From contig JAFLBS010000001.1 in NCBI GenBank assembly GCA_017303755.1, forward strand, positions 1,116,001 through 1,180,000: 64,000 nucleotides of DNA, read 5' to 3'. The stretch is from Flavobacteriales bacterium (GTDB lineage Bacteria; Bacteroidota; Bacteroidia; Flavobacteriales; Flavobacteriaceae). Position 1 is the stretch's first letter, and every line of letters begins with the position of its first letter. Below the pieces are notes generated by a model. That model made no database searches, was not told where the DNA came from, and saw only the letters and a list, made by a program, of their open reading frames with translations. This document shows positions 44,829-64,000 of the stretch, one piece after another. The position numbers and the translations under genes were made by a program.

Positions 44829-45847
44829 CTTTTGGAAGTTTAGTACCTAACCGTCACGCCACCGATGGTAGCTATCGTTATGGGTTTAATGGGATGGAAA
44901 AAGATGATGAGTTGAAAGGTAATGGCAATAGCATAAACTATGAAGCTCGTATGCAAGACACAAGGGTAGGAAGATTTTTATCTCTTGATCCTTTAACAAA
45001 GTCATTTCCGCATTATAGCCCTTATCAATTTGCAGGTAATAGTCCCATCTATCACATTGATTTAGATGGAAGAGAGAGATACTCTTATATGAGGGTTTTT
45101 GACAAAAATGGCAAAGAAAGCCTACTATTAGTCAAAAAAGAAGATATTGTAGAAACCGTTATTAGTGGATATCGAAACTCAACTAGTGCAGGGAATGATG
45201 GCCCAATTCCTATCTATAAAACCATTAAAAATAGAAAACAAGAATATATTGTTATAAATGAACATGAAGAAGTTGGATGGATTGATGGCGTTGATGGTGG
45301 GTTAAATGGGCAAAAGAAAGTTATTTATCATATAAGCACTAAGTACAAATCTCTTGAAGACGCTAAGAACAGAAAAAATGGTGTTGATGGTAATGAAAGA
45401 TTGATGTTTTATGCTAAAGTTGGAGCCATGAATTGTCATAATGAGAATAAGGCAAATGGTGGTGGTGGTATGTTTGTTTCAAACTTCAGAAGGAATACAA
45501 TTGTTAAGGAAGCTAACAACATTATTAACTCTTCTGGTATGACAAAATTAGAGGAAGCTTATCAGAATGGAATAGCAGCAGAGGTTAAGATTGGAGGAAG
45601 AACAATTATCTATGAGCCCGACCTACCCGCATCTGGTTTTACATTGATGGAAGAAAATGGATTTGTTCTTGGGCCTCAAGCTTTCAAGACAGAAGCAGAA
45701 TTATCAAAAACACTTTTGCAAGAGTTATTTAGATTAAAAAACAGCAAAGTACCAGAGAAAGGGTTAAGTGGAGGACAGGCTACTTCTGAAACCAACGCAG
45801 CTTTCGAGTTTGCTGAACAAAATGCTAAGAATGTTATAAGAAAATAA
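44829..45847 (+). CDS. Orphan Rhs tip cassette A
   Basis: From 44829 the DNA reads in frame DYYPFGSLVPNRHATDGS then YRYGFNGMEKDDELKGNG, the same as in the core of the full-length Rhs gene; there is no start codon before the internal Met at 44894, which gives 317 residues. The core ends FLSLDPLTKSFPHYSPYQFA, GNSPIYHIDLDGRER. After it comes a toxin-like part of about 250 residues ending with GGQATSETNAAFEFAEQNAK; I do not recognise the fold. Expression as it stands is doubtful. It is followed by a short zinc-ribbon gene and a boundary hairpin and lies inside the secretion operon in the opposite direction. Confidence 0.7.
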
Positions 45848-45855
45848 AGCTATAT

Positions 45856-46095
45856 ATGTTAAAAAAAACAAAGTTATGGATTGACATGGCCAAATTGTAT
45901 TCAAGAGAAAAGCACTCTAAACTATTTTGTCCAGAGTGTAAAGTAGGAGTAATTAAGATTGTTGATGTTTATTTTGATAACAATAAAAAAATTGATAGAT
46001 ATTTTACATGTGATAATTGTGGAAAGTATAACGTATTAACAATGGACAACAATGTGATGGATTCCGATAGCTCTGATATGCAGAAAGGTCAATAA
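45856..46095 (+). CDS. Zinc-ribbon protein, putative immunity factor of cassette A
   Basis: 79 residues with two Cys pairs, FCPECKVGVIKI and FTCDNCGKYN, a zinc ribbon. No signal peptide, so it is cytosolic, unlike the lipoproteins after the other tips. It begins 8 nt after the tip stop. Immunity by position. Confidence 0.6.
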   Translation: MLKKTKLWIDMAKLYSREKHSKLFCPECKVGVIKIVDVYFDNNKKIDRYFTCDNCGKYNVLTMDNNVMDSDSSDMQKGQ

Positions 46096-46098
46096 TAA

Positions 46099-46168
46099 CC
46101 GACAGCACACATTTACAATCTGTGCCAAAATAGTAAAAAAAGCAACTCACCTCCGAGTTGCTTTTTTT
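46099..46168 (+). repeat. Cassette 3' boundary element with terminator hairpin, copy A
   Basis: CCGACAGCACACATTTACAA and TCTGTGCC (46099-46126) followed by the hairpin AGCAACTC / GAGTTGCT (46141-46162) and a T run. Both parts recur, in the same order relative to the cassette, at 52616-52678 and 57951-58019. It also lies just after the recombinase gene on the other strand, so the hairpin may serve both. Confidence 0.75.
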
Positions 46169-46182
46169 ACACTTCAAAACCA

Positions 46183-47226
46183 CTAATACACCCCCAACTT
46201 ATCATGCACTTTATCCATTTCAATGTCAATATACGATTGTGCGTAGTGGACATAGCGGTTAAACGAGCTACTGCCGTGACTGTGGCCGCTTACTTTTCGT
46301 ACTAAATGCTCGGGCATGCCAAGAATGAGTAAGGTCGTGATGGCGGTTCTGCGCATCATGTGCGAACTCATTTTGTCGCAAAAGCGGTCTTTGGTGTCTT
46401 TTTTGGGTGCTATTTTTTTGGCTTTCCCTTGCTTTTCGCGGGAGATTTCGATGGCAGACGTAAACTCGGCCAGTTCGCCCATGCGTTTTAAGTTCTTATT
46501 GAAGTTGAACAGCGTCATCTTTCCAAAAAGTGGAATTCGGCTGTTTTTTTGCTCGTATTTTTTATAAATCGTCACCGCATACGAGGGTAATTTGATGAAG
46601 CTGTACGTTTTGGTTTTCTTCGATTTGATTTTCACATACCAATCGCTACCCGTTTTTTCAAAATTTTTATTGGTCAGCAACATAATATCAGAATACCTCA
46701 AACCAGTAGTACATCCAAAGACAAAAATATCTTTTACTTTTCGCAAACTTATCGTTAGTTTTTCTTCGAAAGTACTATCGTGAATCAGAAACTTCAATTG
46801 ATCGGGCGATAACACTAAAATGTCAATTTCTTCTTTTCGAACGTAAAACAACTTGTGGTAATCTCCCGTAAAAATGTCTTTTTCGTATTTCAAATAGGTA
46901 AAAAATACCCGAATATTTTTGATAGTAAACCCAACGTAATTGTCGTAACAACCCTTTTTATACATGAACTCAGTGAAGTTTTTATAAAACTTTTTCCAGT
47001 AGTTTTTCTCAACAGTGAGTTCCCGTTTCGTGAGTTTAGTGATATCGGTAACCTGTAATTCAAACTTAGTTTCCTCTGAAAATTTCACTAAATTATTATA
47101 CACATATTTGTAATTGGCCAAAGTAGAAGCCGTTATTTTTTCACCATTCTTTTTGAGTCGTTTTCCGGTTTCAGAATCCCGCATGAATTGCTTGAACAAC
47201 GGTAGTAAGGGTTTTGACTTTTTCAT
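46183..47226 (-). CDS. Tyrosine recombinase inside the secretion operon
   Basis: 347 residues: a SAM-like core-binding domain (about 30-115, ITASTLANYKYVYNNLVKFS) and the catalytic set Arg177 (CTTGLRYSDIMLL), His289 and Arg292 (SHMMRRTAITTLL), His315 (KVSGHSHGSSSF) and Tyr325 (NRYVHY). It begins 12 nt after the gspF stop and reads the same way, as if it were an operon member, yet it separates gspF from gspG. Its base composition is visibly richer in G and C than the flanking genes. I found no attachment repeats around it. A role in shuffling the nearby cassettes is possible but unproven. Confidence 0.88.
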   Translation of the reverse strand: MKKSKPLLPLFKQFMRDSETGKRLKKNGEKITASTLANYKYVYNNLVKFSEETKFELQVTDITKLTKRELTVEKNYWKKFYKNFTEFMYKKGCYDNYVGFTIKNIRVFFTYLKYEKDIFTGDYHKLFYVRKEEIDILVLSPDQLKFLIHDSTFEEKLTISLRKVKDIFVFGCTTGLRYSDIMLLTNKNFEKTGSDWYVKIKSKKTKTYSFIKLPSYAVTIYKKYEQKNSRIPLFGKMTLFNFNKNLKRMGELAEFTSAIEISREKQGKAKKIAPKKDTKDRFCDKMSSHMMRRTAITTLLILGMPEHLVRKVSGHSHGSSSFNRYVHYAQSYIDIEMDKVHDKLGVY

Positions 47227-47238
47227 ACAATTACTCCG

Positions 47239-48360
47239 TTATCGTTTAATAATCTTACTCAAGTCGAACATCGGCGCATACATCGAAATCATAATTACGC
47301 CCACAATTATTCCGATAAAAATAATAATCATTGGTTCTAAAACCACTCCAATCATTTTGGTTTGATGATTGATTTCTTCGTTGTACTGATCAGTCAATCG
47401 TTCAAACATACTGTCAAGTTCGTTTACTTGTTCGGCGACTTCAACCATAGAAACCATTTTCCGCTCGTATACTGAATGTTTTTTCAGACTATCACTCAAA
47501 TACACACCCCGAGTGATATCTTCCTTTATTTCTTCTATAGATTGCTCAATCGGGTAAAATCCAATCATTTTTGAAGTCAGCGACAACGAAGTTAGCAAGG
47601 TGGTCTTAGAACCAATCAGTAAATTCATCGATTGACAAAAACGCGAGATGTATATTTTTCGGATGAGTTTTCCGAAATACGGAATTTTCAACACCATTTT
47701 AGAAGTGAAATTTCTATACTTATTATTGGTTTTAAGTACTTGATGCATCACTACCAAACCAACAATTAATCCAAAAAACACCAGGAATAGAGTTCCCGAA
47801 TGATTGGATATTTTCAAGATAATCTGAGTGCTTTTGGGCAATTCGCTTCCAAATTGTTTGAAAACCGAACTGAACATCGGAACCACTTTATTGAGCATAA
47901 AATAAAGTACCGAAATCGTCACTAACATCACAATTGACGGATAGGTTAATACCGAAATGATTTGTCGGCGCATTTGAATTTTTCGATTGAAAAACTTCTG
48001 TAATTCGAGTAAAACAGCCTCCAATCTTCGGGTTTCTTCACCAATTTGAATGCTATAGTATTCGTAAGGCGAAAACTGACCTGTTGACATCATCGATTCG
48101 TAGATGCTTTTGCCATGGATGACTTTGTCTTTAATATCAAAAATAATGGATTGTTCGAGTTTTGAATTGGCTTGATTGCCCATAATTTCTAAGGCTTTTT
48201 TAAAATCAACTCCCGATTTCAAAAGCATACCCAATTCTCTGTAAAAAACCTCTTTCTTTTTGTCGGACAGTTTTTTAGAAAAAGAAAACGCAGGAGTTTC
48301 TAGTTTAAAATCGGCTGATTTTGCTTTCTCCTGTTTGAATGTATTTAAATCAAAACTCAT
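47239..48360 (-). CDS. GspF/PilC-type inner-membrane platform protein
   Basis: Two copies of the T2SSF domain: FYRELGMLLKSGVDFKKALE (about 38-57) and FCQSMNLLIGSKTTLLTSLS (about 245-265), each before an SIYESM or YLSDSL helix, with three membrane spans (SIVMLVTISVLYFML; GTLFLVFFGLIVGLVVM; the C-terminal GVVLEPMIIIFIGIIVGVIM). Normal length of 373 residues. It overlaps the pseudopilin-like gene upstream by 11 nt. Confidence 0.92.
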   Translation of the reverse strand: MSFDLNTFKQEKAKSADFKLETPAFSFSKKLSDKKKEVFYRELGMLLKSGVDFKKALEIMGNQANSKLEQSIIFDIKDKVIHGKSIYESMMSTGQFSPYEYYSIQIGEETRRLEAVLLELQKFFNRKIQMRRQIISVLTYPSIVMLVTISVLYFMLNKVVPMFSSVFKQFGSELPKSTQIILKISNHSGTLFLVFFGLIVGLVVMHQVLKTNNKYRNFTSKMVLKIPYFGKLIRKIYISRFCQSMNLLIGSKTTLLTSLSLTSKMIGFYPIEQSIEEIKEDITRGVYLSDSLKKHSVYERKMVSMVEVAEQVNELDSMFERLTDQYNEEINHQTKMIGVVLEPMIIIFIGIIVGVIMISMYAPMFDLSKIIKR

Positions 48361-48877
48361 CTTTTTTGAACTCTTTTTTTAGGATTTCATTAGAATACAC
48401 TCTTTTAAAAAACGTAAGACGCATTGGTTCTTTATTTACATCAACATTCAAAGTCAGTCGTTGAAAAATGGTTTTCCGACTTCCGTTCTGAATCGTATCC
48501 ATTTTAAATTGCCGAATCGGAATGGCAAAGGTATCTACAAATTCGTTTTTACTTCTCAAAAAATACTCTGGATAGAGTTGGTATTTAACTATTTCACCTG
48601 AATAGGAAGAAAAAGTAATCTGATTTTCCGAAAACACCATCTTTTCCGATTCAAAAATGTCTTTATTGAACGAATACGTCATTCGATTTAAATCGGCCAC
48701 ATATTGATTCTGTTCTTTAAAATCGAGCATCCTTTCTGACAATATCGTAAATATAACAAATATCAACCCAATAACAATAGCCGAAACGACCATGCTTACT
48801 ACGGCTTCCAAAACCGAAAAAGCGGCAATGTAATGGTTCTTATTCATGATTCGTTTGCACGTAATACTCTTTTTCAA
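48350..48877 (-). CDS. Pseudopilin (GspJ-like)
   Basis: A prepilin leader with cleavage before FSVLEAVVSMVVSAIVIGLI, Glu at +5, Ala at -1 in place of Gly. The soluble part of about 130 residues is beta-rich (QNQYVADLNRMTYSFNKDIF). Size and place beside another pseudopilin gene suggest GspJ. It overlaps both neighbours. Confidence 0.7.
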   Translation of the reverse strand: MKKSITCKRIMNKNHYIAAFSVLEAVVSMVVSAIVIGLIFVIFTILSERMLDFKEQNQYVADLNRMTYSFNKDIFESEKMVFSENQITFSSYSGEIVKYQLYPEYFLRSKNEFVDTFAIPIRQFKMDTIQNGSRKTIFQRLTLNVDVNKEPMRLTFFKRVYSNEILKKEFKKDEF

Positions 48878-49184
48878 AAGTAGAATTAGTACTGTCCTTG
48901 TATTTGATGATGACTTGCTTTAAGTTGGCATTTTCATATTCTTCTTCAATAATCAAATTCGGTTTATCGATGGAATTAAGCGAATCACTCTGAACCTGCA
49001 TTAAAAAAAACAATTCATCGAGTTGATTGCTGGTTCCGTAAAATTTGGGAGAAGTTTTGGGAGAAAAAACCGAAGAATACACCAAAACAGCTATGTACAA
49101 ACAGACCGAGATGATGCTGAGTGCAATGACCGATTCGAGTAGCGAATTGGCTTGGATTTTATAACACTTTTTTATACACGCCAT
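48840..49184 (-). CDS. Pseudopilin (GspI-like)
   Basis: Leader MACIKKCYKIQAN then SLLESVIALSIISVCLYIAV, a class III prepilin hydrophobic helix with Glu near +4. Only 114 residues, which fits the short minor pseudopilin GspI. Overlaps the next gene by 38 nt, an unusually long overlap that indicates coupled translation. Confidence 0.65.
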   Translation of the reverse strand: MACIKKCYKIQANSLLESVIALSIISVCLYIAVLVYSSVFSPKTSPKFYGTSNQLDELFFLMQVQSDSLNSIDKPNLIIEEEYENANLKQVIIKYKDSTNSTFEKEYYVQTNHE

Positions 49185-50373
49185 AGTTGGTGTTTTGATC
49201 TTCTAAAATGGGTACAGACACAAAGTAACTTGGTTTTTTAGTCACGTCAATTTCACAGTTCATTATGCAATTTTCATAAGAAGATGATGCTGCTTTGTGA
49301 AACAACCTATTAGTATAAACAGAACCATAAATTTTTCCTTCCATCATCAGTTTTCCCGAGCTATACACATCTCCAACTAGCAATGTTTTTTTGTGAAAAA
49401 CAATTGTATTCAAATCTATTGTTTTGATTTGATTCCCAAAAAGTACAACAGCTCCCATGATTTTACAATCCTCAGAAATGGTAATTTTGCTTTCATTTTC
49501 AGAAGAATTGTAAACGCAAAGTACAGACGGATAGTGTAGGTTTACATTTTTTTCAAGATGAATTTTTTCAGAGGAAAATGCCTGAATTGCACCCTGAAAA
49601 TTCTCTTTAAATGAAATTTTGGGTGATTTCAGAATCACGTCTTCCAATAGTGCGGTACTTTGTACCTGAATGGAATCTTTCGCGTAAATAATAAAATTTC
49701 CTTTGATGACAATATTATCCAAAATAGGATTTGCCAATTGGATTTCAATGGTTTCGTTTTGAAACGAATTGTAGTATACTGAATCGACATTTCGCTCAAC
49801 ATTTTGAAAACTTCTGAGCTTTGCAGGTAAAGACAAACTCATGGTTTTGTATCTATTGCTAATTTCAGGTAAAAAAGGCTTAGAAAGTGCAATCGTTCCC
49901 AAAGATGTTAATTGATTTTGAGTGCTGCTCGCGTAAAATTGCCTAATTTCTGGCGATGGTAATTGTTTGTCACCTATCAACTTAACCTTACCTGAGTACG
50001 AAATAGGTTTGCTAACACCGCTTAGATAAAGACAAATTTTTTCTTTAGGAAAGCTCCCAACGAAATGAGAAGAAGTGACAGTATCTGATTTGATATAACT
50101 TGAAACCAATAACAAGTTAATCAAGCCATGCGGTTTAGTTTTGATTTCCGATTTCACATTGGAAGTGTCCGTTATGAAAACGCTTTCTTCTTTGAGATTG
50201 TTTCCCAATGCAAAATTAACCGCCGATTGATTCTGAATGTAGAGTTGCTCATTGGTGTTGTAAAATAAATTCAATTGATTATAGAGTGTTGCAAAATAAA
50301 GCAATGCGCCACAAAGAATGGCAACAATAAGGCATACATATACCGAATATAAAAGACTATGAGCCTTTAGCAT
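49159..50373 (-). CDS. Secretion-operon membrane-anchored protein with beta-helix-like part
   Basis: An N-terminal hydrophobic helix (LYSVYVCLIVAILCGALLYF) is followed by about 370 residues without further spans. The second half has repeated short strands (ILDNIVIKGNFIIYAKDSIQ, ALLEDVILKSPKISFKENF, DCKIMGAVVLFGNQIKTIDL, GKLMMEGKIYGSVYTN) as in a bactofilin-like or right-handed beta-helix. Position among pseudopilins suggests the place of GspK, but the fold differs. It overlaps the genes on both sides (26 and 17 nt). Function unknown. Confidence 0.6.
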   Translation of the reverse strand: MLKAHSLLYSVYVCLIVAILCGALLYFATLYNQLNLFYNTNEQLYIQNQSAVNFALGNNLKEESVFITDTSNVKSEIKTKPHGLINLLLVSSYIKSDTVTSSHFVGSFPKEKICLYLSGVSKPISYSGKVKLIGDKQLPSPEIRQFYASSTQNQLTSLGTIALSKPFLPEISNRYKTMSLSLPAKLRSFQNVERNVDSVYYNSFQNETIEIQLANPILDNIVIKGNFIIYAKDSIQVQSTALLEDVILKSPKISFKENFQGAIQAFSSEKIHLEKNVNLHYPSVLCVYNSSENESKITISEDCKIMGAVVLFGNQIKTIDLNTIVFHKKTLLVGDVYSSGKLMMEGKIYGSVYTNRLFHKAASSSYENCIMNCEIDVTKKPSYFVSVPILEDQNTNYGVYKKVL

Positions 50374-51094
50374 TGGCTTTTTTAGTTTTATCTTTTTTAG
50401 AAAACAATCGCTTGAAAAATCCGTCTTTTTTTTCAGGCTCAGTTGTTTTTTTTGCTTTGTTAGTCGAATCGTTTTTAGGTTTGGTTTGCTTTGACTTGGA
50501 TTCTTTTTTATCGGTTTCTTTAGAATCTTTAGCTTTCTTGGATTCTTTTGACTCTTTTTCTGATTGTTCTTTTGGTTTTTTTATTTTCTTAATTACCACA
50601 ACGTCATTTCGATAGTTTAGCGTGTCTTTCGCCTCTAAATTATACCATTTCCCTTGTTTTTTGTCGGCTCTAAAAATGCCTTTTAAAATCAATTCGCCTT
50701 TATCATTATAGCTTTTAAAATTACCGTTTTTTTGTCCGCCAGCCCATTCTTGCTCGGTTGCCAACATACCATTTGGATGCCAAGTTTTCCACAAGCCTAT
50801 TTTTTTCCCGTTTTTGAATTTTCCGCTTTCAGCCAATTGATTATTGAGGTAAAATTTATCAAATTCATCATTGAGTAGTTCGCCCGCAATTCCTTCTTCA
50901 GAGGTATGAATGGCGCCACCTTTAAACCAATAGTAGATGATATTGGATTTGGGACGAACTTTCTTATCTGTGGTATAAAATTCGTATTTGAACTGTTTGT
51001 CGGTAATGCGTTTTCTAAAATACGGATCACCAAACGATTGCAAGCTCAATGCCAACAGAACTGCAAAAAACAAAAAGGATACTTTGGTTTTCAA
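50357..51094 (-). CDS. Secreted MORN-repeat (YwqK-like) protein with charged tail
   Basis: Signal peptide MKTKVSFLFFAVLLALSLQSFG. Residues about 75-155 hold MORN/YwqK-like units (NQLAESGKFKNGKKIGLWKT, WHPNGMLATEQEWAGGQKNG, NFKSYNDKGELILKGIFRAD, KKQGKWYNLE). The last ~80 residues are almost only Lys, Glu, Ser, Asp and Thr. YwqK-like names come from Bacillus, but in Bacteroidota these are common envelope proteins. First gene of the minus-strand secretion operon by the 17-nt overlap with the next gene. Confidence 0.75.
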   Translation of the reverse strand: MKTKVSFLFFAVLLALSLQSFGDPYFRKRITDKQFKYEFYTTDKKVRPKSNIIYYWFKGGAIHTSEEGIAGELLNDEFDKFYLNNQLAESGKFKNGKKIGLWKTWHPNGMLATEQEWAGGQKNGNFKSYNDKGELILKGIFRADKKQGKWYNLEAKDTLNYRNDVVVIKKIKKPKEQSEKESKESKKAKDSKETDKKESKSKQTKPKNDSTNKAKKTTEPEKKDGFFKRLFSKKDKTKKANAKGS

Positions 51095-51260
51095 GGCAAA
51101 TGGTTTTATTCTACTAAAATAGTATTTTTTTTAAAGTTTCCGATTTTTCGTTGAATAAAAATTTCTGAGAGTTACTTTTTTAAATGCATAATAATCTTTA
51201 AAAGTATATTACTATTAATCTGAAATGCATTATTTTTACAATACACTAAAAATTAGCCAT

Positions 51261-52589: not shown

Positions 52590-52615
52590 GGTTGTTAATA
52601 CAATTTAAAATAAAA

Positions 52616-52825: not shown

Positions 52826-53224
52826 CTATTCTAAAATTAGCGTTTTATTATTCTCTTTTAATATAGCAAATAAACTATCTTCACTGATTAATCGATTCTT
52901 TTTTAAATCTTCTATTATACAGACATTATGATGATTAGGATAACAGATATATAAAATACTATCATGAATACTAGGATAAAAATCTTCAGCATCTCCATGA
53001 ATATCATGTGTTCCTGTCAAGAATCTCATGCCAATTATGGTTGAATCATTTTTATTTAAAAGTTCATAAAATAATGGATTAGTCATTTCAAATTCATTTT
53101 TTTGATAAAACCTTACTTTAAGTATACCCATTTCGTAAATTTTTTTTTCTCCAAGAAATACATATTTATCATTAAAACAAGATGTTAAAACAATTAGTGA
53201 TAATAAAAAAAGTAATTTTTTCAT
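52826..53224 (-). CDS. Lipoprotein, putative immunity factor of cassette B
   Basis: Lipobox MKKLLFLLSLIVLTSC, mature part of 116 residues without a known domain. It begins 2 nt after the stop of orphan tip B. An envelope lipoprotein beside a toxin tip is a usual immunity arrangement; identity as immunity is positional. Confidence 0.65.
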   Translation of the reverse strand: MKKLLFLLSLIVLTSCFNDKYVFLGEKKIYEMGILKVRFYQKNEFEMTNPLFYELLNKNDSTIIGMRFLTGTHDIHGDAEDFYPSIHDSILYICYPNHHNVCIIEDLKKNRLISEDSLFAILKENNKTLILE

Positions 53225-53226
53225 GA

Positions 53227-54267
53227 TTATTGTCTTCTTATAATGTCTTCATCTACTAAAAACAAATTTTTTCCTTTTTCAGCTGGTTTTATGCTTTTTA
53301 ACTCTTTTGGAATACTAAAATTATTAAGCGTAAAATTTGTTTTAAAAAACAAGGGAGTGAAGCTAAGATTTTTAAACTTTTTATCAGTAAAAGTGCCCGG
53401 ATAACTCCTATAAATTATCAATGAAGTGATTGCATCTAATGGCTGTATTAAGTTTTTTATTTTTGTAGTATTCATACCTGATTGAACTATTCTATAAAAA
53501 TTCAACATATTGGATGGTAAGTCTGCTGGTTCAAAAGATGATGAAGATGTAGGATGTAAAGATTGTAGTTTTTCAAATTGAAAACTTACATCTTGGAAAA
53601 TAGTTAATGCAACAGACTTTTTCTCCTCTAATGATAATCCAGCAGATATGGCATACTGTCTTTCGACACCAATCGACATTCCTCCCTTAAGTATATCTTG
53701 TTTGTAAGTAACACTGTAGCAACCCATATGCAGTTTTTCTTTAGAAGGCTCGTTCATAATTTGTCTCCATAAGTTTTGAACGCCTATGTGAGGATCTTTT
53801 CTGGTTGTTTCTGTAAATGCATGGGTTTTATCAACCCATCCATAGTTTTTTGCAAAAAAAATTCTTCCTTCAAGAATTGCTTTTTCATAATCATCTTTAG
53901 GCTTAATCTTTGATACATCTATAGTAGAATTATAGGCTAATTGTGCCTCTTCAGCATTTACGTATGGGCCATATATACTTCCCGATTCTCCGTTAATCTT
54001 ATTAATTTTAAATTCTTCTAAACCCTCAAGTTCTATTGAATCAATTGGTCTGTTTCCACTAAATTGATAAGGAGTATACCATGGATATTTACTCTCAAGC
54101 GGATCCACCGCAAAAAACCTACCCACTCTAGGGTCGTGCATTCTAAAGGTGTAGTTTAATGAATTCCCTTCGCCTTTAATTTCATCATCTTTTTCCTGGC
54201 CTTGGAAGCCATAACGGTAGCTACCATCGGTGGCGTGACGGTTGGGTACTAAACTTCCAAAAGGATA
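53227..54267 (-). CDS. Orphan Rhs tip cassette B
   Basis: The in-frame core remnant starts at 54267 (YPFGSLVPNRHATDGSYRYG, then FQGQEKDDEIKGEGNSLN), but the first Met is at 54141 (MHDPRVGRFFAVDPLESKYP), giving 304 residues; an in-frame TAA lies upstream at about 54316. The toxin part after IELEGLEE is about 255 residues. In it FFAKNYGWVDKTHAFTETTR, SVALTIFQDVSFQFEKLQ and SSSFEPADLPSNMLNFYRIV have the look of a conserved secreted family (I am reminded of DUF4056-type proteins), not a known nuclease. Without a promoter or proper start it is probably silent unless recombined into the full-length gene. Confidence 0.7.
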   Translation of the reverse strand, partial: YPFGSLVPNRHATDGSYRYGFQGQEKDDEIKGEGNSLNYTFRMHDPRVGRFFAVDPLESKYPWYTPYQFSGNRPIDSIELEGLEEFKINKINGESGSIYGPYVNAEEAQLAYNSTIDVSKIKPKDDYEKAILEGRIFFAKNYGWVDKTHAFTETTRKDPHIGVQNLWRQIMNEPSKEKLHMGCYSVTYKQDILKGGMSIGVERQYAISAGLSLEEKKSVALTIFQDVSFQFEKLQSLHPTSSSSFEPADLPSNMLNFYRIVQSGMNTTKIKNLIQPLDAITSLIIYRSYPGTFTDKKFKNLSFTPLFFKTNFTLNNFSIPKELKSIKPAEKGKNLFLVDEDIIRRQ

Positions 54268-54622
54268 TGTACTTTTTTGTATAAGAACGTGAGGTAAATA
54301 TAGGAAAAAACCATATTAAAAATGCGTTTTTTGGAGTTAAATTTTTGTCATTTTAATAAGGAAAAAATGATTGTTTTTTCGAAAAACTGTAACTTAATTT
54401 AATAACAAATATAATATGAATATTACTTTTTGATGGAAATATATGTGATGCTTTTAAAGGATAATTTGATTTGGAGAGTTTTTTTTACCCTATTTTAATA
54501 TCTATAAAAAGGATTTGAATGGAAGTGAATATTATGAATTTAGTATTTATTTACTATTTTTAAAAATGATATTACTATTAATCTAAAATGCATTATTTTT
54601 ACAATATACTAAAAATTAGCCT
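54268..54622. other. Leader repeat of cassette B
   Basis: No gene. About 54268-54470 matches the sequence before cassette C (57724-57900) over most of its length: GTACTTTTTTGTATAAGAAC, GTGAGGTAAATATAGGAAAA, TTTGGAGTTAAATTTTGT, AAAAATGATTGTTTTTT, TACTTTTTGATGGAA. The right part (about 54565-54622) is the duplicated leader of the NHL genes. Confidence 0.6.
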
Positions 54623-56000: not shown

Positions 56001-56044
56001 TGTATTACATTCACGCTAAGGGATTCTTGTGAGGGCTGTGAAAC

Positions 56045-56725
56045 TTATTCATCAAATGACCAAAAAATTAGAATTTGTTCAGAGTTTTTATTCTCGATTA
56101 AATAATTCTCTATTTCAGTTATTCTTTCTATTTCATCATTAAATTTTAATGAATTAATTTGATAGTAATATTTTGAAATTAAATAACTATCTGAGATTTG
56201 TGGGTTATATAAATAATTATTTCTTGTAGGCTCAAAAAAATAGTCATACTTAAAAAGTAGTTTATTTATTTCCCATTTAATTGGTTTATATGTTATGAAC
56301 CAATCGTTGAAAAAGATATATGAGTTGTATTTTACATAATATTCTTTCCATGTATCATAGTTAATATAATTTATAGAATTTCCTTTAAACTCAATACCAT
56401 CATTAATTATTGAATTTAAAACTTCGTTAGTAAATTCATATTCATTTTTAATATTACCTTTAAAATTAGTTAGGAAAAACTTGTTTTTAGTTAATGATTC
56501 ATAATTTTTTCTTAATTCATTAAGTAAAAATTTAGCATTTGCAATAACAAATTCTTTATCATTATTTTTTTCTATGTAATTAATTTTTTGTAACGCTTTA
56601 TTATACCCATTTTTATTATACAAAGCAATTTCAACATTATCTTCCATATTCATTTTCTTATCGTTACAGGAAAAATTAAATAAAATTAGAATAAAAAATA
56701 AGACTTTATTTACCACTCTTTTCAT
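56045..56725 (-). CDS. Lipoprotein, putative immunity factor of cassette C
   Basis: Lipobox MKRVVNKVLFFILILFNFSC, then 206 residues rich in Asn, Tyr and Lys without a domain I know. It overlaps the end of orphan tip C by 20 nt. Immunity by position. Confidence 0.65.
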   Translation of the reverse strand: MKRVVNKVLFFILILFNFSCNDKKMNMEDNVEIALYNKNGYNKALQKINYIEKNNDKEFVIANAKFLLNELRKNYESLTKNKFFLTNFKGNIKNEYEFTNEVLNSIINDGIEFKGNSINYINYDTWKEYYVKYNSYIFFNDWFITYKPIKWEINKLLFKYDYFFEPTRNNYLYNPQISDSYLISKYYYQINSLKFNDEIERITEIENYLIENKNSEQILIFWSFDE

Positions 56726-57722
56726 ATTGTTCAGTCATATTGTCTATAATAGCTTCTGTATTCTCATTTTGATTATCCCTTAGGATTAATCCTCCACCTA
56801 AACTCTGTAATATTCTTAATTTCTCATCTATAGCGGATTTCGTATTACTGTTTTTTGTAATCTCTAGAAAAGTATCCTTATCAGTGACTAAAACAGTAAT
56901 TTCATTATTAGACTTTCGTTCTTTAGCAGTTTCAATTGCTTGATCAAGACCTTTTAATATCTTGTCTTTAGCACTTCTACCTGATCCAACGGTTTTAATT
57001 TCTGCATAAATCTTTGTTTCACTAGTTAAACTAATCTTTTTTAAATATTCTTTTCCATTAATATCGTTTAATTCTATTCCCAAATCATCTTGATAAATTC
57101 TTATATAACCACCATCTGGACCAATAAATTTCACTCCTTTCTTAGCTTTATCAATCATTGATTTAATTGGATTTACAGTTATTACAGCATCATATTTTTT
57201 ACCTGGTGAGCTTGGTTTAGCAACTGCTCTAAAAAAAGGCAACAATCCTATTGTGAAACTTGAAGCCCCTATCGTCTCTCCGATAGCTCCTTTTAAATTA
57301 CCATGATAAGAAATTAATTGTTTTTCTTGTTGTGGTGTTCTATTTTTAATTTTTCTTAACCTTACATAATTTTCAAAATATAAAAAAACACTTTTGTCAT
57401 ACAAAGGTGCTAAAGGAGCATATTTTATAACTGCTGCATATATTCGCGGGTTGGGATAATCACCATTAATATCTGAATTATATAATGGATTATTATCAGC
57501 ATAACTATATGTTGAAGAATCTGGAAATTCTGTCTCATGAGAATCAGGTGAAAACCATCTACCAACTCTTGGATCCAACATCCTAGCCCCGAAATCATAG
57601 CTATTCCCTTCGCCTTTAACTTCATCATCTTTTTCCATCCCATTAAAGCCATAACGGTAGCTACCATCAGTGGCGTGACGGTTAGGTACTAAACTTCCAA
57701 AAGGATATGTACTTTTTTGTAT
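56706..57722 (-). CDS. Orphan Rhs tip cassette C, nuclease-like
   Basis: In-frame core from about 57722 (YPFGSLVPNRHATDGSYRYG, FNGMEKDDEVKGEGNSYD); first Met is the one of MEKDDEVKG at 57638 (310 residues). The core then diverges (FGARMLDPRVGRWFSPDSHE), unlike tips A and B and the full gene, so this tip comes from another Rhs lineage. The toxin part has KKYDAVITVNPIKSMIDK and, about 60 residues on, IYAEIKTVGSGRSAKDKI, an Asp ... E-x-K arrangement compatible with a PD-(D/E)XK-type nuclease (low certainty). The end LGGGLILRDNQNENTE resembles a restriction-like C-terminal strand. Confidence 0.65.
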   Translation of the reverse strand: MQKSTYPFGSLVPNRHATDGSYRYGFNGMEKDDEVKGEGNSYDFGARMLDPRVGRWFSPDSHETEFPDSSTYSYADNNPLYNSDINGDYPNPRIYAAVIKYAPLAPLYDKSVFLYFENYVRLRKIKNRTPQQEKQLISYHGNLKGAIGETIGASSFTIGLLPFFRAVAKPSSPGKKYDAVITVNPIKSMIDKAKKGVKFIGPDGGYIRIYQDDLGIELNDINGKEYLKKISLTSETKIYAEIKTVGSGRSAKDKILKGLDQAIETAKERKSNNEITVLVTDKDTFLEITKNSNTKSAIDEKLRILQSLGGGLILRDNQNENTEAIIDNMTEQYEKSGK

Positions 57723-57950
57723 AAGAACGTGAGGTAAATATAGGAAAAAATCACATCAAATAATGTAGTTTTTGGAGTTAAATTTTGTTCATTATTAGTA
57801 GGTGAAAAATGATTGTTTTTTGAAAAGTTAAGACTAAATTGAATAACAAAAATAGAATTATGAGTATTGCTTTTTGATGGAATATATAATAAGAATTTGA
57901 AGCGTTTTTTAAAGATTATTGATGCTTTGAGTTTTTGCTTTTTATGAATG
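57723..57950. other. Leader repeat of cassette C
   Basis: No gene. Shares ~200 nt, with small indels, with the DNA before cassette B. The two leaders together define the 5' side of the orphan module outside the core homology. Confidence 0.6.
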
Positions 57951-58019
57951 AAAAAGCAACTCGGTTAAAGTTGCTTTTTTATTGCTTTGTGGGTATGGAT
58001 TGTAAATGTGTGCTATTGG
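57951..58019. repeat. Cassette 3' boundary element with hairpin, full-gene copy
   Basis: Hairpin AAAAAGCAACT / AGTTGCTTTTT (57951-57979) and the 32-nt element at 57988-58019 with ATTGTAAATGTGTGCTATTG. It lies 90 nt downstream of the immunity gene of the full-length Rhs gene (minus strand). Confidence 0.75.
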
Positions 58020-58109
58020 AATTATTAAAATCAAGACTGTTTTATCATTCCGCAAAGTCTCCTGACCTTTCGGAGCTGAAGATTAGTTGCTTTTTTGTTT
58101 ATTGTATGA

Positions 58110-58454
58110 TTACAAATCATCGCTATCAGGTTGTTTTCTTATAAATTCATGAATCCATAAATTTAATAATTCTAACGAATGAAAATCGTCAGAACTATAA
58201 AGTCTAATAATTCTTTCACAGTCATATTTTTTTATACATTTTTCAGCATAATTACTTTTTACAAAAAAATAAAAATTATCAAAAAAGTCTCTTACAATTG
58301 AATCTTCTTTTGCTATAATATAACCTTTAAAGAATATGTAAAAATCTTCCACCTTTTGAATTGAAAAAAGTGAAGGCCTCTCTAATACATATAAAATTAA
58401 ATTTATATTTTCTATTTTAAAATCATTATTTTCCATAATCTGAAAAAAACTCAT
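58110..58454 (-). CDS. Putative immunity protein of the full-length Rhs toxin
   Basis: 114 residues, no signal peptide, acidic and aromatic (FKGYIIAKEDSIVRDFFDNF, YFFVKSNYAEKCIKKYDCER, LELLNLWIHEFIRKQP). It begins 6 nt after the Rhs stop. Cytosolic location and position fit an immunity protein; I know no family. Confidence 0.65.
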   Translation of the reverse strand: MSFFQIMENNDFKIENINLILYVLERPSLFSIQKVEDFYIFFKGYIIAKEDSIVRDFFDNFYFFVKSNYAEKCIKKYDCERIIRLYSSDDFHSLELLNLWIHEFIRKQPDSDDL

Positions 58455-58460
58455 TAATAT

Positions 58461-61400
58461 TTATTTAATTTCTTTTGCAGTCTTCATTATTTCTGCCCCG
58501 CTAATAATTTTTGATGTTTTAGGATCAAAAGCTTCAAGTCCTTTAACAAAATCAGACTTCAATATTCCATTTGGGTTCATATTATCAAAAATATATTCAA
58601 CCCCTTTTATAGTTTTTTGTACAAATTGATGTATTCCTGTTGTGGATAAAGGCACATCTCTCCCATTAACAAGCACACTCATACCCGCACCATTTGGAGC
58701 TTTTATTTCATATTTAGTACCGCCAAATATTTTTTTAAAATCCTTTGCAAATTCCTTACATTTACCATATTGTAATTTACCAACAATTTTAGTTTCAGTA
58801 ATTAAACTTCTAACTTCAGTTATTGTTCTATTGAGTAAAGAAAACTTGTTTGAAGCGCCCGCATACCTTAGTCCATTAACTAACTTACCTCCTCCGCCAA
58901 TCCCAGGAGCTGGAAGAACACGATTACCTAAAACCTCAGTCTTATGATATTGATCCGAAGTTAGTTCAATGTCATCATTATCAGAACTTGTTGTAAAATG
59001 AATAAGTTTGCCATCATTTTTAGACAATCTAAAAATGGAATATCTTTTTTCATGATTCTCTAAAATTCTTATAACTAAGTATGTATCATTCTCTAATGAA
59101 ATTATATTTTCATCAGGGATATTATATTTAGTGATATAAGCATTTAGTCTATTAAGATGATATTGACCTGTTATAGCATTCAATGCCTTAGTGAAAAAAC
59201 TTGGGTCTTTTTCTTCTAATCCTTCAAGCTCTACAAATCTAATCACTTTATTACCTCCAAAACTGTATGGCGAATACCATGGATATGATTTTTCCAACGG
59301 ATCCACTGCAAAAAACCTACCCACTCTAGGGTCATGCATTCTAAAGGTGTAGTTTAATGAATTCCCTTCACCTTTAATTTCGTCGTCTTTTTCCTGGCCT
59401 TGGAAGCCATAACGGTAGCTACCATCGGTGGCGTGACGGTTGGGTACTAAACTTCCAAAAGGATAGTAATCATTATAGGCTAAAACATCAGGTTTAAATA
59501 ACGAAACATAATCTACATTTGATGGATCTACGGCATAGGCATAAAAATCATCAACACTAAAACGCACCGCAGTCGAGTTCTCACAATTGGCTGTTATTGT
59601 AACATAATAGTCGTCAGAAACAGTTGGAGTAAATGAACCAGATACAACATCGTCATTGATCAGAGTACTCCATAAAACTGTTTTATCAAGTTTATCCCTA
59701 ACCTCTAAAGACAAAGGAACTGATGAAGGAAAATTATCTAGTTTTTTTACTTTTACGTTAAACATGACGGTTTGATCTTCCTCTAAACGTAAGGGTAATT
59801 GTATCCCGGTGTTAGCAGCATCGGGTTTGGTCGTGGTAATCAGATCTCCGTATTTGGTATAGTCTAAAACAGCTTCGTTTAAACTAGTCCAGTTTGTTTC
59901 TCTGTCAAATGTATCTATAAAAACACTTCGAGTATTTGTGTTTATTAATTTTCGATCACTAATTACATTTAAGACATTTCCTAAATGATTGGACAATTCG
60001 TAACTTTTATCACCTACTAAACGATAGTAATATTCGGGGTATCTATAGTCGCCATAATTTTGTATTCCTAATCTACTGCTTCCATAAATGTGGTGTTCAA
60101 TTAGCTTATTGTTGATAACCTCTTCGGCAGTATACAAAGAAATGTATTGTTGGTATACTCCTAACACATTTCCTTGTGCATCTCTAGAGTAATAGGTCGT
60201 GGTTGTACCTTCTCTTCGTCCAACATCTTGTTTGGCTATTCGATTACCTAAACCATCATAAAAGAAATTAATTGTTTGACGGCCATTACCTTTTTGTACA
60301 CTTTTTACTTTTCCATCAACTCTCCAGATAATCTTGTCAATATTTTCGGCTTTATCTTGAATCAGTTGGCCAATTTCATCATAAACATAATTATCGTTGT
60401 CCGTTTGATGGTCAATGTCTTCGGTGAAATTGTCACTTATTGTGACATCATCATTAATAGATTTTAGTTTGTTGGTATACGGGATGTAATTGTACTCAAA
60501 GCGATCCATTTTAACTATTGACTCTTGTGTATTACCTGCTAAAATCTTTGGGGCATCTCTGTGTAAGGTTAAGAGATTTCCATTTTTATCATAAGTATAA
60601 TCACTTTCGTAACTTGGTGTTGATGTGACTAATCCGCCAACTTCAGTCGCTTTGTAAGAGTCCATGCCAAATATTCTATTCAACTGGTCATAACTATACA
60701 AGTTTACTTGAGTAGGCAGTATTTCTTCATTCAATCCTCTAACCGAGGTAATCATCCGTTTAATGTTTCCGTTAAATAGATTGGTGCCAGAAAAATTGGT
60801 GTTAGTAGGTGAGACAGAATAAGGGTAAACTGTTCCGGGTTGTCTAGCTTCATAATCGCCATCAAAGTAGGATAACGAAAAACCAAAAGCATCTCTTGAA
60901 ATGTAGTTACCATCTCTTCCCATGTCTTTATTGTTGGCAGCTAAATTCTCTGAATTAACTGTTTTCAACCAACCTTGTAAAGTATAAGCATAGTCAGTAC
61001 CTTGCACTTTTTTGTCACCAGTAATGACTTTGGCTAACGGACCGTGTTCATAATACAAATAAGTGGCATCATTTTCCCAAATAACACCATCTCTAGATGT
61101 CTCTACTGATGTTATTCGGTTGTCTGCATCGTAAGTGTATCGATGTATGAACTGATCCTCTTTTGACCCTTTTTGAAAATGGACTTTATTTACATTTCCG
61201 CTAATTAAGTCGTACTCATAATGAACTCTTTTTATTATTCCATCAGGGTTGTTTTCATCGTTTACTATATTTGGTCCTATTCTTTGGGCCATTTCATCTA
61301 CATTTCCATGGATGTCATAATTATAGAATATAGCAGTATCATTTTCGGCTAATTCTTTCCCTTCAAAATGTGAATCAAAAGTTAAAATAGCAGTAACTCT

Positions 61401-64000
61401 ATTTCGAGTATTCCTAATTTGTTGTGGTGTTAGAAAATCATCTGCATTGAACGGGTCATAAGAATCGTACAATGTTTTGGTAACTTCTGTTTGATTTGAG
61501 GATATCTCATATGGAAAATGAGTAGAATCTACACCAATTTCAGTTCCCAAAGTTACATTTATGAGTCTCCCATTATCATTAATTTCTGCAACCATATTAG
61601 GTAGTAGTTCAAATTCACCAGCTTCAATTATTCTTCCCAAAGGATCATAACGAGTATAACTAAAATCAGACGAAGTATTATTTGCAATTTTAATTTCGCA
61701 TATTCTGGAACCTGGGTCATAGATTCCAAAATCGGCATACATCGGGTCTGAATTTTGGGCTACGGGCTCGTTTACTTGATCTAATAATGAACCATTTTTA
61801 TAAAATTTGATAACACCATTATTTCGGGTTATCTTCATTTTATCACCGTTTATAACGGTATGAATCGGGCCAAAGTCTTGAATACCTTGTCGTAATCTGA
61901 ATTGACCATTTACGTCATAGGAAAAACCATAGTCAACCGAATTATTATCACCAGCAGCATACGACATACCAAATATGACATGCTGAGTACTCGATAAAGG
62001 ATGATTTTCATCAATTCGGATGGTATGCTCAACACTTGAGTTGGTTGAAAGGCTTGACAAACTAGTTCCACCTGAATACTTCCATGAATACGCGCTGCTC
62101 GCTTTATAAACGTAAGTTTCTTCTGTAGACAATGCTGTTTGTAGCGACAAACTTGGATTCAATTCAACCACAGAATTTTTTTGCTTATCGTTTTGTGATG
62201 CTACGATTCTTCCTAATTTGTCATAGGCAAATCGGGTTTCTCCGCCATCTGGGGTTAATTGCCAAACCAATTGATTCAATGAGTTGTATCGGTATTGCGT
62301 TTTAAAATTATGCTCAGGAATCAGAGCGTTGTTTTCAGAATTTGGAGTTTCAATTCTAAGCTGATCAATCAAGTTATTTGTTGATGACGGTAAGGTCGCC
62401 ACTCCTTTTGGGGCAACAGTTTGAATCAAATTACCCGCTTGGTCATAATAATATAAAGTATATTGATATTCTCTATCAGCATAAGATAAATTAAAATTTT
62501 CAATCGCAGTGGCTAATGCTTCTTCTAGATAACGTCGTTTGAACTCAGCTTTTTTAGATTCTAAATAAGCTGCATAGTTTGCCGAATTATATACGTCTGC
62601 TACTGCTGCATTAAACTGTTCGCAAGGTGAGTCCTCTGGTAAACCCACATTAAATGATACAGAAGGAATCATTGGGGTGGGTGGACAAATTTCAGGATGA
62701 GCAATCAAATAAGTAATAATAAACGCTTTCCAGTTTTTAATCTCTGTGTCAGTTGTGGTAGTTAAATAATCTTTATAAGCTAAAATCGCAGAAAGATAAC
62801 CGTCACCACCCGTTGTATAACCATCAAAGCCAAAGTTCAATCCTGTAGCACCAAATTCTGCAATTGTTATATATTGTGCGTGATTTGTTGAGGAAATTTG
62901 TAGTTGTTCAATGTAATCTATATACCCATCTACTAAATACTGTAGATTGTTCCCGCAGAAATAGTCTTTTCTATTTGCATAATATTGAGCTTCATAATTG
63001 GTCGAGCCAAATGTAGTTGACATAAAGGTCATATAAGTTTCATAAGCCTCATCACAGGCTACAGGAACGGGTGGACGTGGAATACAAGGACAGGTGTTTT
63101 GAATGGAATTTGAACTGTTAGTAGCGTATACATAGTTGGTTGGTATTCTTGCAAAATCATTACCGTAAGCCTCAGTTCGGAAGTAACAAATTTTTCCGTT
63201 TCCAGAATTTGTACAAGTTATATAATTATAACCTGCATTTTTAATTAAAGTCGAAATATTAAAACTAAAATCATGAGTAGCTTCATTTGTTGTATTAGTT
63301 ACTGTGTCTGTCCACAAGTATCTTATTCGCATAATATCCCAATTTAAAGGAGATGGATTTGGAAATAATTTTACTTCTAGAACCTCGGTAATGTTTTGTG
63401 ATGTACCAGAGCCGCCTGACAAATAAAATTCGACTGCTGGATCAAAATTATTATTAACACTGTTTTTCCATCTAAACTTATATGGAAATTTATTATTCTT
63501 ATAATATGTAAAAGTATTTTGAGTTGATGTACTATAATTAGGGCTATTAGAACCATAACACTGATCTGTTTTAGCATCAAGAAAATGTTTAATTCTATTT
63601 AAATCTGGATTATTTAACATTAAATAATTATCTCTAAACGCTCCATAAAATGATAAATTATTTCCAATTATTTCTACATTTTGTGGATCATTATTAATTT
63701 GAACAATTTCATTTAATAAATTTTTAAAATGAAGTTCAAAATTTTCTTTGTCTTGACCTATAAAACAATCGCAAACATCACCTAAACCGTCATTATCTGT
63801 ATCATTTTGGTTTTCACTATTAGTATATGGGCAATTATCACAAGCGTTTCCTCTTGAATCATTATCAGAATTCAATTGATTTAAGTTATTAATAGTTGGG
63901 CAATTATCACAAGCATCAGCAATTCCATCTCCGTCTGGACTGTTTTCTTGGCCAGGATTAGGAACATTTGGGCAATTGTCATTTACATTAGGAATTCCAT
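58461..64000 (-). CDS. Full-length Rhs toxin, 5' end outside the window
   Basis: The reading frame is open to the right edge (codons before the Met at 63875 continue thrombospondin type 3 repeats such as NCPNVPNPGQENSPDGDGIA and NCPTINNLNQLNSDNDSRGN). Order: TSP3 repeats, an unrecognised middle, YD repeats (YDKLGRIVAS, YDADNRITSV, YDQLNRIFGM, YDGLGNRIAK), the Rhs-associated core (LSNHLGNVLNVISDRKL, DPRVGRFFAVDPLEKSYPWY, SPYSFGGNKVIRFVELEG), then a C-terminal toxin of about 260 residues. The latter has GKCKEFAKDFKKIF, TTGIHQFVQ and YIFDNMNPNG, a Cys-His-Asp/Asn order compatible with a papain-like toxin fold. It is the only Rhs gene of this locus that can be a full protein and so is the likely recipient of the orphan tips. 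Confidence 0.85.
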   Translation of the reverse strand, partial: GIPNVNDNCPNVPNPGQENSPDGDGIADACDNCPTINNLNQLNSDNDSRGNACDNCPYTNSENQNDTDNDGLGDVCDCFIGQDKENFELHFKNLLNEIVQINNDPQNVEIIGNNLSFYGAFRDNYLMLNNPDLNRIKHFLDAKTDQCYGSNSPNYSTSTQNTFTYYKNNKFPYKFRWKNSVNNNFDPAVEFYLSGGSGTSQNITEVLEVKLFPNPSPLNWDIMRIRYLWTDTVTNTTNEATHDFSFNISTLIKNAGYNYITCTNSGNGKICYFRTEAYGNDFARIPTNYVYATNSSNSIQNTCPCIPRPPVPVACDEAYETYMTFMSTTFGSTNYEAQYYANRKDYFCGNNLQYLVDGYIDYIEQLQISSTNHAQYITIAEFGATGLNFGFDGYTTGGDGYLSAILAYKDYLTTTTDTEIKNWKAFIITYLIAHPEICPPTPMIPSVSFNVGLPEDSPCEQFNAAVADVYNSANYAAYLESKKAEFKRRYLEEALATAIENFNLSYADREYQYTLYYYDQAGNLIQTVAPKGVATLPSSTNNLIDQLRIETPNSENNALIPEHNFKTQYRYNSLNQLVWQLTPDGGETRFAYDKLGRIVASQNDKQKNSVVELNPSLSLQTALSTEETYVYKASSAYSWKYSGGTSLSSLSTNSSVEHTIRIDENHPLSSTQHVIFGMSYAAGDNNSVDYGFSYDVNGQFRLRQGIQDFGPIHTVINGDKMKITRNNGVIKFYKNGSLLDQVNEPVAQNSDPMYADFGIYDPGSRICEIKIANNTSSDFSYTRYDPLGRIIEAGEFELLPNMVAEINDNGRLINVTLGTEIGVDSTHFPYEISSNQTEVTKTLYDSYDPFNADDFLTPQQIRNTRNRVTAILTFDSHFEGKELAENDTAIFYNYDIHGNVDEMAQRIGPNIVNDENNPDGIIKRVHYEYDLISGNVNKVHFQKGSKEDQFIHRYTYDADNRITSVETSRDGVIWENDATYLYYEHGPLAKVITGDKKVQGTDYAYTLQGWLKTVNSENLAANNKDMGRDGNYISRDAFGFSLSYFDGDYEARQPGTVYPYSVSPTNTNFSGTNLFNGNIKRMITSVRGLNEEILPTQVNLYSYDQLNRIFGMDSYKATEVGGLVTSTPSYESDYTYDKNGNLLTLHRDAPKILAGNTQESIVKMDRFEYNYIPYTNKLKSINDDVTISDNFTEDIDHQTDNDNYVYDEIGQLIQDKAENIDKIIWRVDGKVKSVQKGNGRQTINFFYDGLGNRIAKQDVGRREGTTTTYYSRDAQGNVLGVYQQYISLYTAEEVINNKLIEHHIYGSSRLGIQNYGDYRYPEYYYRLVGDKSYELSNHLGNVLNVISDRKLINTNTRSVFIDTFDRETNWTSLNEAVLDYTKYGDLITTTKPDAANTGIQLPLRLEEDQTVMFNVKVKKLDNFPSSVPLSLEVRDKLDKTVLWSTLINDDVVSGSFTPTVSDDYYVTITANCENSTAVRFSVDDFYAYAVDPSNVDYVSLFKPDVLAYNDYYPFGSLVPNRHATDGSYRYGFQGQEKDDEIKGEGNSLNYTFRMHDPRVGRFFAVDPLEKSYPWYSPYSFGGNKVIRFVELEGLEEKDPSFFTKALNAITGQYHLNRLNAYITKYNIPDENIISLENDTYLVIRILENHEKRYSIFRLSKNDGKLIHFTTSSDNDDIELTSDQYHKTEVLGNRVLPAPGIGGGGKLVNGLRYAGASNKFSLLNRTITEVRSLITETKIVGKLQYGKCKEFAKDFKKIFGGTKYEIKAPNGAGMSVLVNGRDVPLSTTGIHQFVQKTIKGVEYIFDNMNPNGILKSDFVKGLEAFDPKTSKIISGAEIMKTAKEIK

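Follow-up and report, generated by a model that had tools for sequence, protein, structure and literature searches.

A predicted recombinase-driven inversion switch for Rhs toxin tips in a Flavobacteriaceae bacterium and its relatives

The route by which silent Rhs tips come into use has been an open question since strings of orphan tips were described, and it is posed in a particular form by a locus in a 64,000-nucleotide stretch of a Flavobacteriales bacterium (Flavobacteriaceae; GenBank assembly GCA_017303755.1, contig JAFLBS010000001.1, positions 1,116,001 to 1,180,000 of the forward strand), the whole of which we call the window. Here a full-length Rhs gene is accompanied by three orphan tips that begin in the same core sequence, and one of these, at 44825, lies on the strand opposite to the full gene with a tyrosine recombinase gene between the two. 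We regard this orientation as the key feature of the locus. The locus is very probably a site-specific inversion switch for toxin tips, driven by the recombinase, reversible and shufflon-like, in which all immunity genes are kept. The case is strong for this class of loci and moderate for the window's own strain.

The window locus and the proposed flip

The 23-mer TATCCTTTTGGAAGTTTAGTACC has four exact copies in the 4.07-Mb genome, in a search that allowed up to three mismatches, and all four lie at this locus, with first bases at 44825 (plus), 54267 (minus), 57707 (minus) and 59465 (minus); a reversed control pattern gave no match across the same genome. The codon phase is common to all four sites, the frames downstream are open for 333-346 codons, and each copy opens a different tip that is followed by a small gene. 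The features concerned are as follows.

58461..64000, minus: C-terminal part of the full-length Rhs gene, the presumed expression copy (domain matches; signal-peptide-like N-terminus by eye)
59443..59465, minus: junction site in the full gene, with GATTAC directly upstream at 59466-59471
58461..59465, minus: current full-gene tip, comprising the core end and a Tox-PL-2 papain-fold toxin domain (domain match)
58110..58454, minus: 114 aa, putative immunity gene for the tip on the full gene (assigned by position; without family match)
44825..45847, plus: inverted partner tip, class A, preceded by GATTAC (44819-44824) like the site of the full gene (no Pfam match)
45856..46095, plus: 79 aa, putative immunity gene for the inverted tip (resembles a zinc ribbon, under curated cut-offs)
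46183..47226, minus: tyrosine recombinase, 347 aa, the proposed tip invertase (Phage_integrase match, family alignment)
56706..57707, minus: orphan tip on the strand of the full gene, class B (without known toxin domain)
56045..56725, minus: putative immunity gene, 226 aa, overlapping its tip by 20 nt (position only)
53227..54267, minus: orphan tip on the strand of the full gene, class B (without known toxin domain; core fragment most like that of the full gene)
52826..53224, minus: putative immunity gene, 132 aa, lipoprotein-like N-terminus by eye (position only)

Class A orphans are those with GATTAC or a close form ahead of the site, as in the full gene, and class B orphans have none; the 44825 orphan is of class A and those at 54267 and 57707 are of class B. 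The full gene encodes 3514 aa on the minus strand from a start at window coordinate 69005, beyond the window edge, and its product matches Rhs_assc_core, RHS_repeat, TSP_3 and DUF6443, so that the locus has an Rhs/YD-repeat core with a conserved end motif and then a variable tip. In the orphans only the end of the core is present, and two of their three core matches fall under the curated cut-off. None of the three has an ATG, GTG or TTG ahead of an internal Met (at 44894, 54141 and 57638). The spacing between an orphan tip and the next gene is a gap of 8 nt (45847/45856) or 2 nt (53227/53224) or an overlap of 20 nt (56706/56725), and the full-gene tip is followed after 6 nt (58461/58454). These results bear out an earlier note on the window, which had described tips that share core codons with the full gene, lack a start codon before an internal Met and are each followed by a small gene within 0-8 nt or overlapping; one of its tip starts, 57722, is to be corrected, as the first base of that site is 57707. 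The core fragment of the 54267 orphan is nearest to that of the full gene, with values of 0.95 at +60..+119 and 0.85 at +120..+179 where the other two orphans have 0.58-0.65, a similarity which suggests that this orphan was recently exchanged with the full gene.

The recombinase gene lies between the 44825 cassette and the other cassettes. Its library matches are to the general Phage_integrase model (E 5e-12) and, below that model's cut-off, to a weak tyrosine recombinase model, and it has no match in the Protein Data Bank (PDB) as a profile (E<=1e-5) or as a single sequence (E<=0.01). R177, H289, R292, H315 and Y325, which we take to be the catalytic residues, are invariant across seven aligned sequences, and both these residues and the length are conserved in the family.

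In the mechanism that we propose, the full Rhs gene alone provides a start and an export N-terminus. The recombinase, encoded inside the segment, would recombine the core site at 59465 (minus) with the same sequence at the orphan start at 44825 (plus), and the DNA between the sites would flip, joining the orphan tip in frame to the full core; the displaced tip and its immunity gene would then become the orphan, and the flip could be reversed. The 57707 and 54267 tips, which lie inside the segment, would turn to face the full gene on the first flip, and a second flip could bring either of them onto it. All four immunity genes would remain in the chromosome throughout. The 14.6-kb segment of the window presumably flips in this way, with its activity there being less certain than that of the class.

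Inversions and layout in relatives

Both orientations of such a segment are seen in relatives of the window strain, and this is direct evidence that inversion occurs. In the first case, bases 1-42293 of the main contig of genome G133 match bases 3231603-3273945 up to both contig ends, at 99.5-99.7% identity with differences that are mostly indels, a redundancy that looks like an unresolved circular overlap. The two copies differ by a 4558-bp inversion that is 99.89% identical once reversed, and the full-gene tip of one copy is the orphan tip of the other, both pairs being 100% identical. Comparison of the four arms shows that the upstream bases (CCTCC vs TATCC) keep their position and that everything beyond a shared 60 bp is exchanged. 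In the second case, loci L080 and L134, from two Flavobacterium genomes, share an inner 4808 bp that is 99.96% identical and turned relative to flanks of 87-98% identity, and the crossover is confined to the 19 bp CTTTTGGAATGCTGGTACC. The difference in identity between this segment (L080 8311-13118, L134 8311-13117) and its flanks suggests that it was exchanged recently as one unit. Contigs that end at a junction (e.g. L066, L103, L106, L112 and L118) fit an invertible repeat or a plain repeat collapse and are not used as evidence.

These cases bear on an explanation in which the recombinase gene alone turns, bounded by repeats that lie 3′ in the two cassettes, and the tips do not move. Such turning would account for L086/L091 and L152/L093, two pairs of loci with main flanks of 81-91% identity in which the recombinase is turned relative to both flanks, and no tip common to L086 and L091 was found; inverted repeats flank the recombinase in 17 of the 35 loci tested, so that in some loci the gene could turn by itself. 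It is refuted, however, for G133 and for L080/L134, where the tips flip too and the break lies at the core site, and 18 of the 35 loci, the window included, were without inner repeats in the same test. As a general account we hold it to be very improbable.

The layout of the window recurs widely. Our census comprises 92 recombinase loci after removal of duplicates (L038, L040, L043, L154, L155, L156, L157, L161, L162 and L164); L158 (a decayed recombinase), L160 (a locus cut by contig ends) and L163 are not among them, and junctions scoring below 12-14 at the site were excluded from the census, the tip clusters, the CGTTCTT counts and the dyad and CTTTTGG comparisons given below. Since the census loci share ancestry, p values are guides only. 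The full gene lies within the examined stretch in 46 of the 92 loci; elsewhere it may lie farther out, be interrupted by the edge of a contig or be lacking. Of the 46, 41 have an orphan tip on the other strand, and the recombinase lies inside the resulting segment in 31 of the 41 and outside it, next to the orphan, in the other 10. Where the recombinase is inside, it is on the strand of the full gene in 16 loci and on the opposite strand in 15; where it is outside, the corresponding numbers are 9 and 1 (Fisher p=0.059 for the inside/outside contrast). When orientation is mapped on a quick recombinase tree (41 rows), the 31 inside loci show 12 changes, compared with 10.7 +/- 1.5 for 300 shuffles of the labels. 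As the observed number is close to the shuffled expectation, the orientation of an inside recombinase is not inherited.

The recombinase also occurs together with the Rhs junction. A junction-peptide search of 150 genomes of the genus revealed a recurring giant frame accompanied, about 4.3 kb away, by a short frame on the other strand; this pair was present in 6 of the 20 stretches examined (L038-L043, from five genomes), and all six have between the two frames a relative of the recombinase, 68-75% identical to that of the window. The remaining 14 stretches, which are orphan clusters or contig pieces, include one with a recombinase (L053). At E<=1e-60 the recombinase was found in 9 of the 150 genomes, all of them within the 64 that have an Rhs junction, and at E<=1e-110 it is present in 26 of 398 genomes of the genus and in 13 of 397 sampled from the family; these samples (150, 398 and 397) overlap and include the window's own genome. 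Among the best 80 of 92 relatives confirmed in a scan of named genomes are proteins from Flavobacterium, Aquimarina, Maribacter, Psychroserpens, Mesonia and others and, more distantly, from Chitinophagaceae and related metagenome-assembled genomes, and the gene stays beside Rhs junctions as far as Chitinophagaceae. The earlier note had named a recombinase gene in combination with the tips; that gene does belong to the tip store, and it is presumably this linked recombinase that does the flipping. At L158 (9459-10496), a recombinase gene with ten in-frame stops adjoins an orphan tip, a decayed switch.

The recombination site and competing explanations

A comparison of full-gene junctions with those of opposite-strand orphans (34 loci) gives an identity of 0.33 upstream, close to what chance would give, and a jump to 0.87 at -6. 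The inverted site is thus short, with a 5′ edge that is sharp at -6 and a 3′ side that fades gradually. Over +36..+47 the two junctions of one locus agree at about 0.80 and those of different loci at 0.36, and this contrast indicates that the two junctions of a locus are kept alike by exchange, that is, by local homogenisation. When junctions are paired within loci, 42 of 43 pairs have the same bases at the motif CTTTTGG (+4..+10), including 35 of 35 with class A orphans; the sole miss, L139, was misplaced by anchoring. At the Tyr codon pair of the site, TAC-TAT is found in 42 of 46 full genes and in 3 of 16 Rhs junctions from recombinase-free genomes (p=1.3e-7, for loci that are not independent; three of the 16 controls come from genome G004, and L026 itself resembles a partner site). 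On codon usage we read this bias as a silent-site constraint at the junction.

A dyad of 10-6-10 geometry, CCTTTTGGnA-N6-TnCCnAACCG, was considered as the site. It is the best of its geometry, with a mean of 5.84 of 10 pairs against a background of 2.63 +/- 0.72, but its spacer differs in 14 of 43 pairs and it is not claimed; a crossover at CTTTTGG fits the alignments better.

The same junctions must be weighed against the possibility that the locus is a passive store, in which displaced tips are rarely reactivated by RecA-type homologous recombination and the recombinase has no part in this or is left over from a mobile element. The model in the literature is one of displacement and strings of orphans (Jackson 2009), and in Salmonella an orphan has been shown to recombine onto the main gene (Koskiniemi 2014). 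The identical stretch from junction to junction, 60 bp in G133, ranges from 17 bp to 186 bp or more in pairs of class A and goes down to 7 bp in those of class B, and in some loci it is long enough for RecA recombination. Moreover, Rhs junction loci without the recombinase exist (G004, G016, G033 and G056). Against a passive store stand the opposite-strand partner in 41 of the 46 recombinase loci with a full gene, the sharp 5′ limit at GATTAC together with the silent-codon constraint, the random orientation of the recombinase where it is inside, and the conservation of its length, catalytic residues and place beside Rhs junctions as far as Chitinophagaceae. We therefore consider a passive store unlikely. 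The view of the locus in the earlier note as a tip-switching store in a Flavobacterium stands as far as switching is concerned, and falls short in its passive form, which misses the inverted partner and the flips.

A further explanation arises from a type II secretion-like operon that is parted in the window by the inverted tip and the recombinase (39080-51094).

47239..51094, minus: first half of the operon, T2SSF and four upstream genes, inside the predicted invertible segment (order in relatives)
39080..44517, minus: second half, with pilin-like, leader-peptidase-like, T2SSE and secretin genes and one more, outside the segment (order in relatives; the pilin-like and leader-peptidase-like matches are under curated cut-offs)

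The flip might mainly control this operon, by joining or parting its halves, with the exchange of tips as a side effect. In the window and in G038, G564 and G626, gspG does not come next after gspF, and one side of the break is occupied by a junction or the recombinase. Across 84 loci (duplicates removed), however, 14 have gspF and gspG side by side, the window has them apart, 7 lack one of the two in the examined stretch and 62 show neither, and the operon is intact and outside the segment in loci checked by eye (e.g. L039, L041, L072, L073, L091 and L093). Control of the operon is therefore a most doubtful main role. As for the opposite-strand tip, which the earlier note took to have moved into this operon, it is no stray: an inverted partner is the recurrent layout, in 41 of 46 loci, with the recombinase between in 31 of the 41, and flips between such sites are observed. 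Because one half of the operon lies inside the 14.6-kb segment, it is the main source of doubt on whether the switch is active in the window itself: either the split operon is tolerated or flips are rare in such genomes.

It is also worth considering what weighs against an inversion switch, beyond the inner repeats, the long identical stretches and the recombinase-free loci already mentioned. A flip in the window would part the secretion operon. The flip in G133 is an assembly-level observation in one genome, and L080 and L134 show no full gene in the examined stretches. Five of the 46 loci have no opposite-strand orphan in the examined stretch (L070, L096, L120, L137 and L148), and two loci depart from the layout in that the class A orphan of L148, in an arrangement that would favour excision over inversion, and one of four in L077 lie on the strand of the full gene. 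The inside/outside contrast in recombinase orientation reaches no more than the p=0.059 given above. The candidate 6-bp spacer (+13..+18) varies in 14 of 43 pairs, so that the crossover point is not fixed. Finally, the 44825, 54267 and 57707 tips have no toxin match in Pfam or NCBIfam, and a search of 199 genus genomes, that of the window among them, gave no relatives at E<=1e-8 for the 57707 and 44825 tips besides themselves.

Cassettes, neighbouring genes and known systems

Among the four tips of the window, only the one on the full gene carries a named toxin domain, the Tox-PL-2 papain fold; the 57707 and 44825 tips have no PDB match at E<=1, and the immunity genes are assigned by their position only. 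The window tips are presumably toxins with cognate immunity genes. In all, 175 tips fall into 127 clusters, and the 147 of these that were scanned match 27 Pfam families, each in one or two tips (Tox-PL-2, LHH, WHH, AHH, Ntox21, Ntox23, Ntox35, Colicin-DNase and CdiA_C_tRNase among them), with at least 116 of the 147 matching no family. Larger stores, with 4-6 tips on one or both sides of the recombinase, are found in L084, L095, L099, L103, L124 and L129.

The cassettes of the window are bordered by two kinds of short element.

57723..57742, minus: promoter-like element TATATTTA-n4-ACGTTCTT, ending 15 nt ahead of the 57707 site
54283..54302, minus: promoter-like element TATATTTA-n4-ACGTTCTT, ending 15 nt ahead of the 54267 site
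46104..46118, plus: 3′ boundary element of the 44825 cassette, exact match to AGCACANATTTACAA
52659..52673, minus: 3′ boundary element of the 54267 cassette, exact match to AGCACANATTTACAA
58000..58014, minus: 3′ boundary element of the full-gene cassette, exact match to AGCACANATTTACAA

Among class B orphans 18 of 50 have CGTTCTT upstream, compared with 14 of 45 among full genes and 4 of 66 among orphans of class A. In both class B orphans of the window the motif ends 15 nt ahead of the site, a spacing that by eye is common in full genes. Just before CGTTCT, 12 of the 26 class B orphans that have it carry TAnnTTTA or TAnnTTTG (by eye), the form in the two orphans of the window being TATATTTA, an element that we take to resemble the Bacteroidetes -7 promoter box. 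The orphans had been called promoterless; on motif resemblance, this is not established and is doubtful for 57707 and 54267.

The conserved 3′ boundary that had also been noted is present as exact copies of AGCACANATTTACAA after three of the four cassettes, the 57707 cassette having none. These are its only three exact matches in the genome, and three more sites with one mismatch lie elsewhere in it. As a cassette-specific site the element was rejected: it is related to a palindrome, GCGCGGATTTGCAATCCGTGC, of which each of seven genomes has 1-12 copies (up to two mismatches), and because these lie mostly away from the locus we treat the 3′ element as a dispersed repeat. Four copies of GCGCGGATTTGCAATCCGTGC, one with two mismatches, lie within 1.4 kb outside the window (G000 C4 59880-61244), and this cluster may mark another cassette array.

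Other genes in the surroundings deserve brief description. Near-duplicate NHL-repeat genes at 51225-52589 and 54623-55948 are interleaved with the class B cassettes; the duplication takes in the sequences upstream of them and their terminator-like sequences, and the second gene has a type IX sorting tail. In the interval 27421-36872 of the window, a second Rhs-type protein, of 2311 aa, is encoded on the plus strand with a core end that is different by eye; two small genes follow it, and farther on there is a tyrosine recombinase-like gene at 35556-36872 (minus) with a Phage_int_SAM_5 match. L148, L150 and L122 have a variant layout, in which a class A or class A-like orphan stands directly upstream of a divergent recombinase, followed by a gspF block.

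Invertible switches of C-termini occur in other proteins, and among them is the pilV shufflon of the R64 type, in which a linked tyrosine recombinase inverts alternative C-terminal ends onto a fixed N-terminal part. The window system is like it in its linked tyrosine recombinase and in the exchangeable C-terminal ends on a fixed N-terminal part. It differs in that what is exchanged is toxin tips, each accompanied by an immunity gene, and in that the sites are coding Rhs core; for this comparison the window recombinase was placed by general integrase models.

In Enterobacteria, a main Rhs gene is accompanied by downstream orphan rhs-CT/rhsI pairs, and the published models for activation of a tip involve homologous recombination with circles or gene duplication (Jackson 2009; Koskiniemi 2014). 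The event in Salmonella would delete the main immunity gene, and a prior duplication was proposed (Koskiniemi 2014). As described there, those systems share with the window a core with a variable tip and an immunity gene, orphans that start in the core without a translation start, and tips that can move; the window system is distinguished by the inverted partner tip, the linked tyrosine recombinase and a reversible inversion that would keep both immunity genes. Within Bacteroidetes, the TANFOR proteins are large polymorphic toxins with exchangeable tips (PMC7073777), and in size and exchangeable tips the window protein is like them; it has no TANFOR match among its NCBIfam matches to E 0.01, when searched as two overlapping pieces that cover the whole protein, and the main text of that paper has no word beginning with recombin-, inver- or orphan. 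Arrays of Rhs genes with pseudogene tips, for which the authors invoke displacement, are described in Ornithobacterium hominis and Bergeyella cardium (PMC13183296). These Bacteroidota also have a large Rhs gene and many orphan tips with immunity genes, and in the portion of that report consulted no invertible partner is described. A search for an invertase or shufflon acting on Rhs tips found no report in the titles and abstract openings of open-licence literature, which is weak evidence of absence. Rhs orphans, displacement and homologous recombination are hence known, and what appears to be new is the joining of Rhs tips with an invertible C-terminus switch.

A linked recombinase with inverted sites would give silent tips a programmed and reversible route into use, one that avoids the loss of an immunity gene. 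If this is correct, the window genome stores four tips that could be reached by one or two successive flips, and clonal cells would be armed differently and yet be mutually immune, so that populations would be mixed. We think it reasonably likely that this is a toxin-tip shufflon found across the Flavobacteriaceae, with kin in Chitinophagaceae, which by inversion at a site within the Rhs core keeps populations mixed for the one of two or more toxins that is deployed, as all immunity genes are retained.

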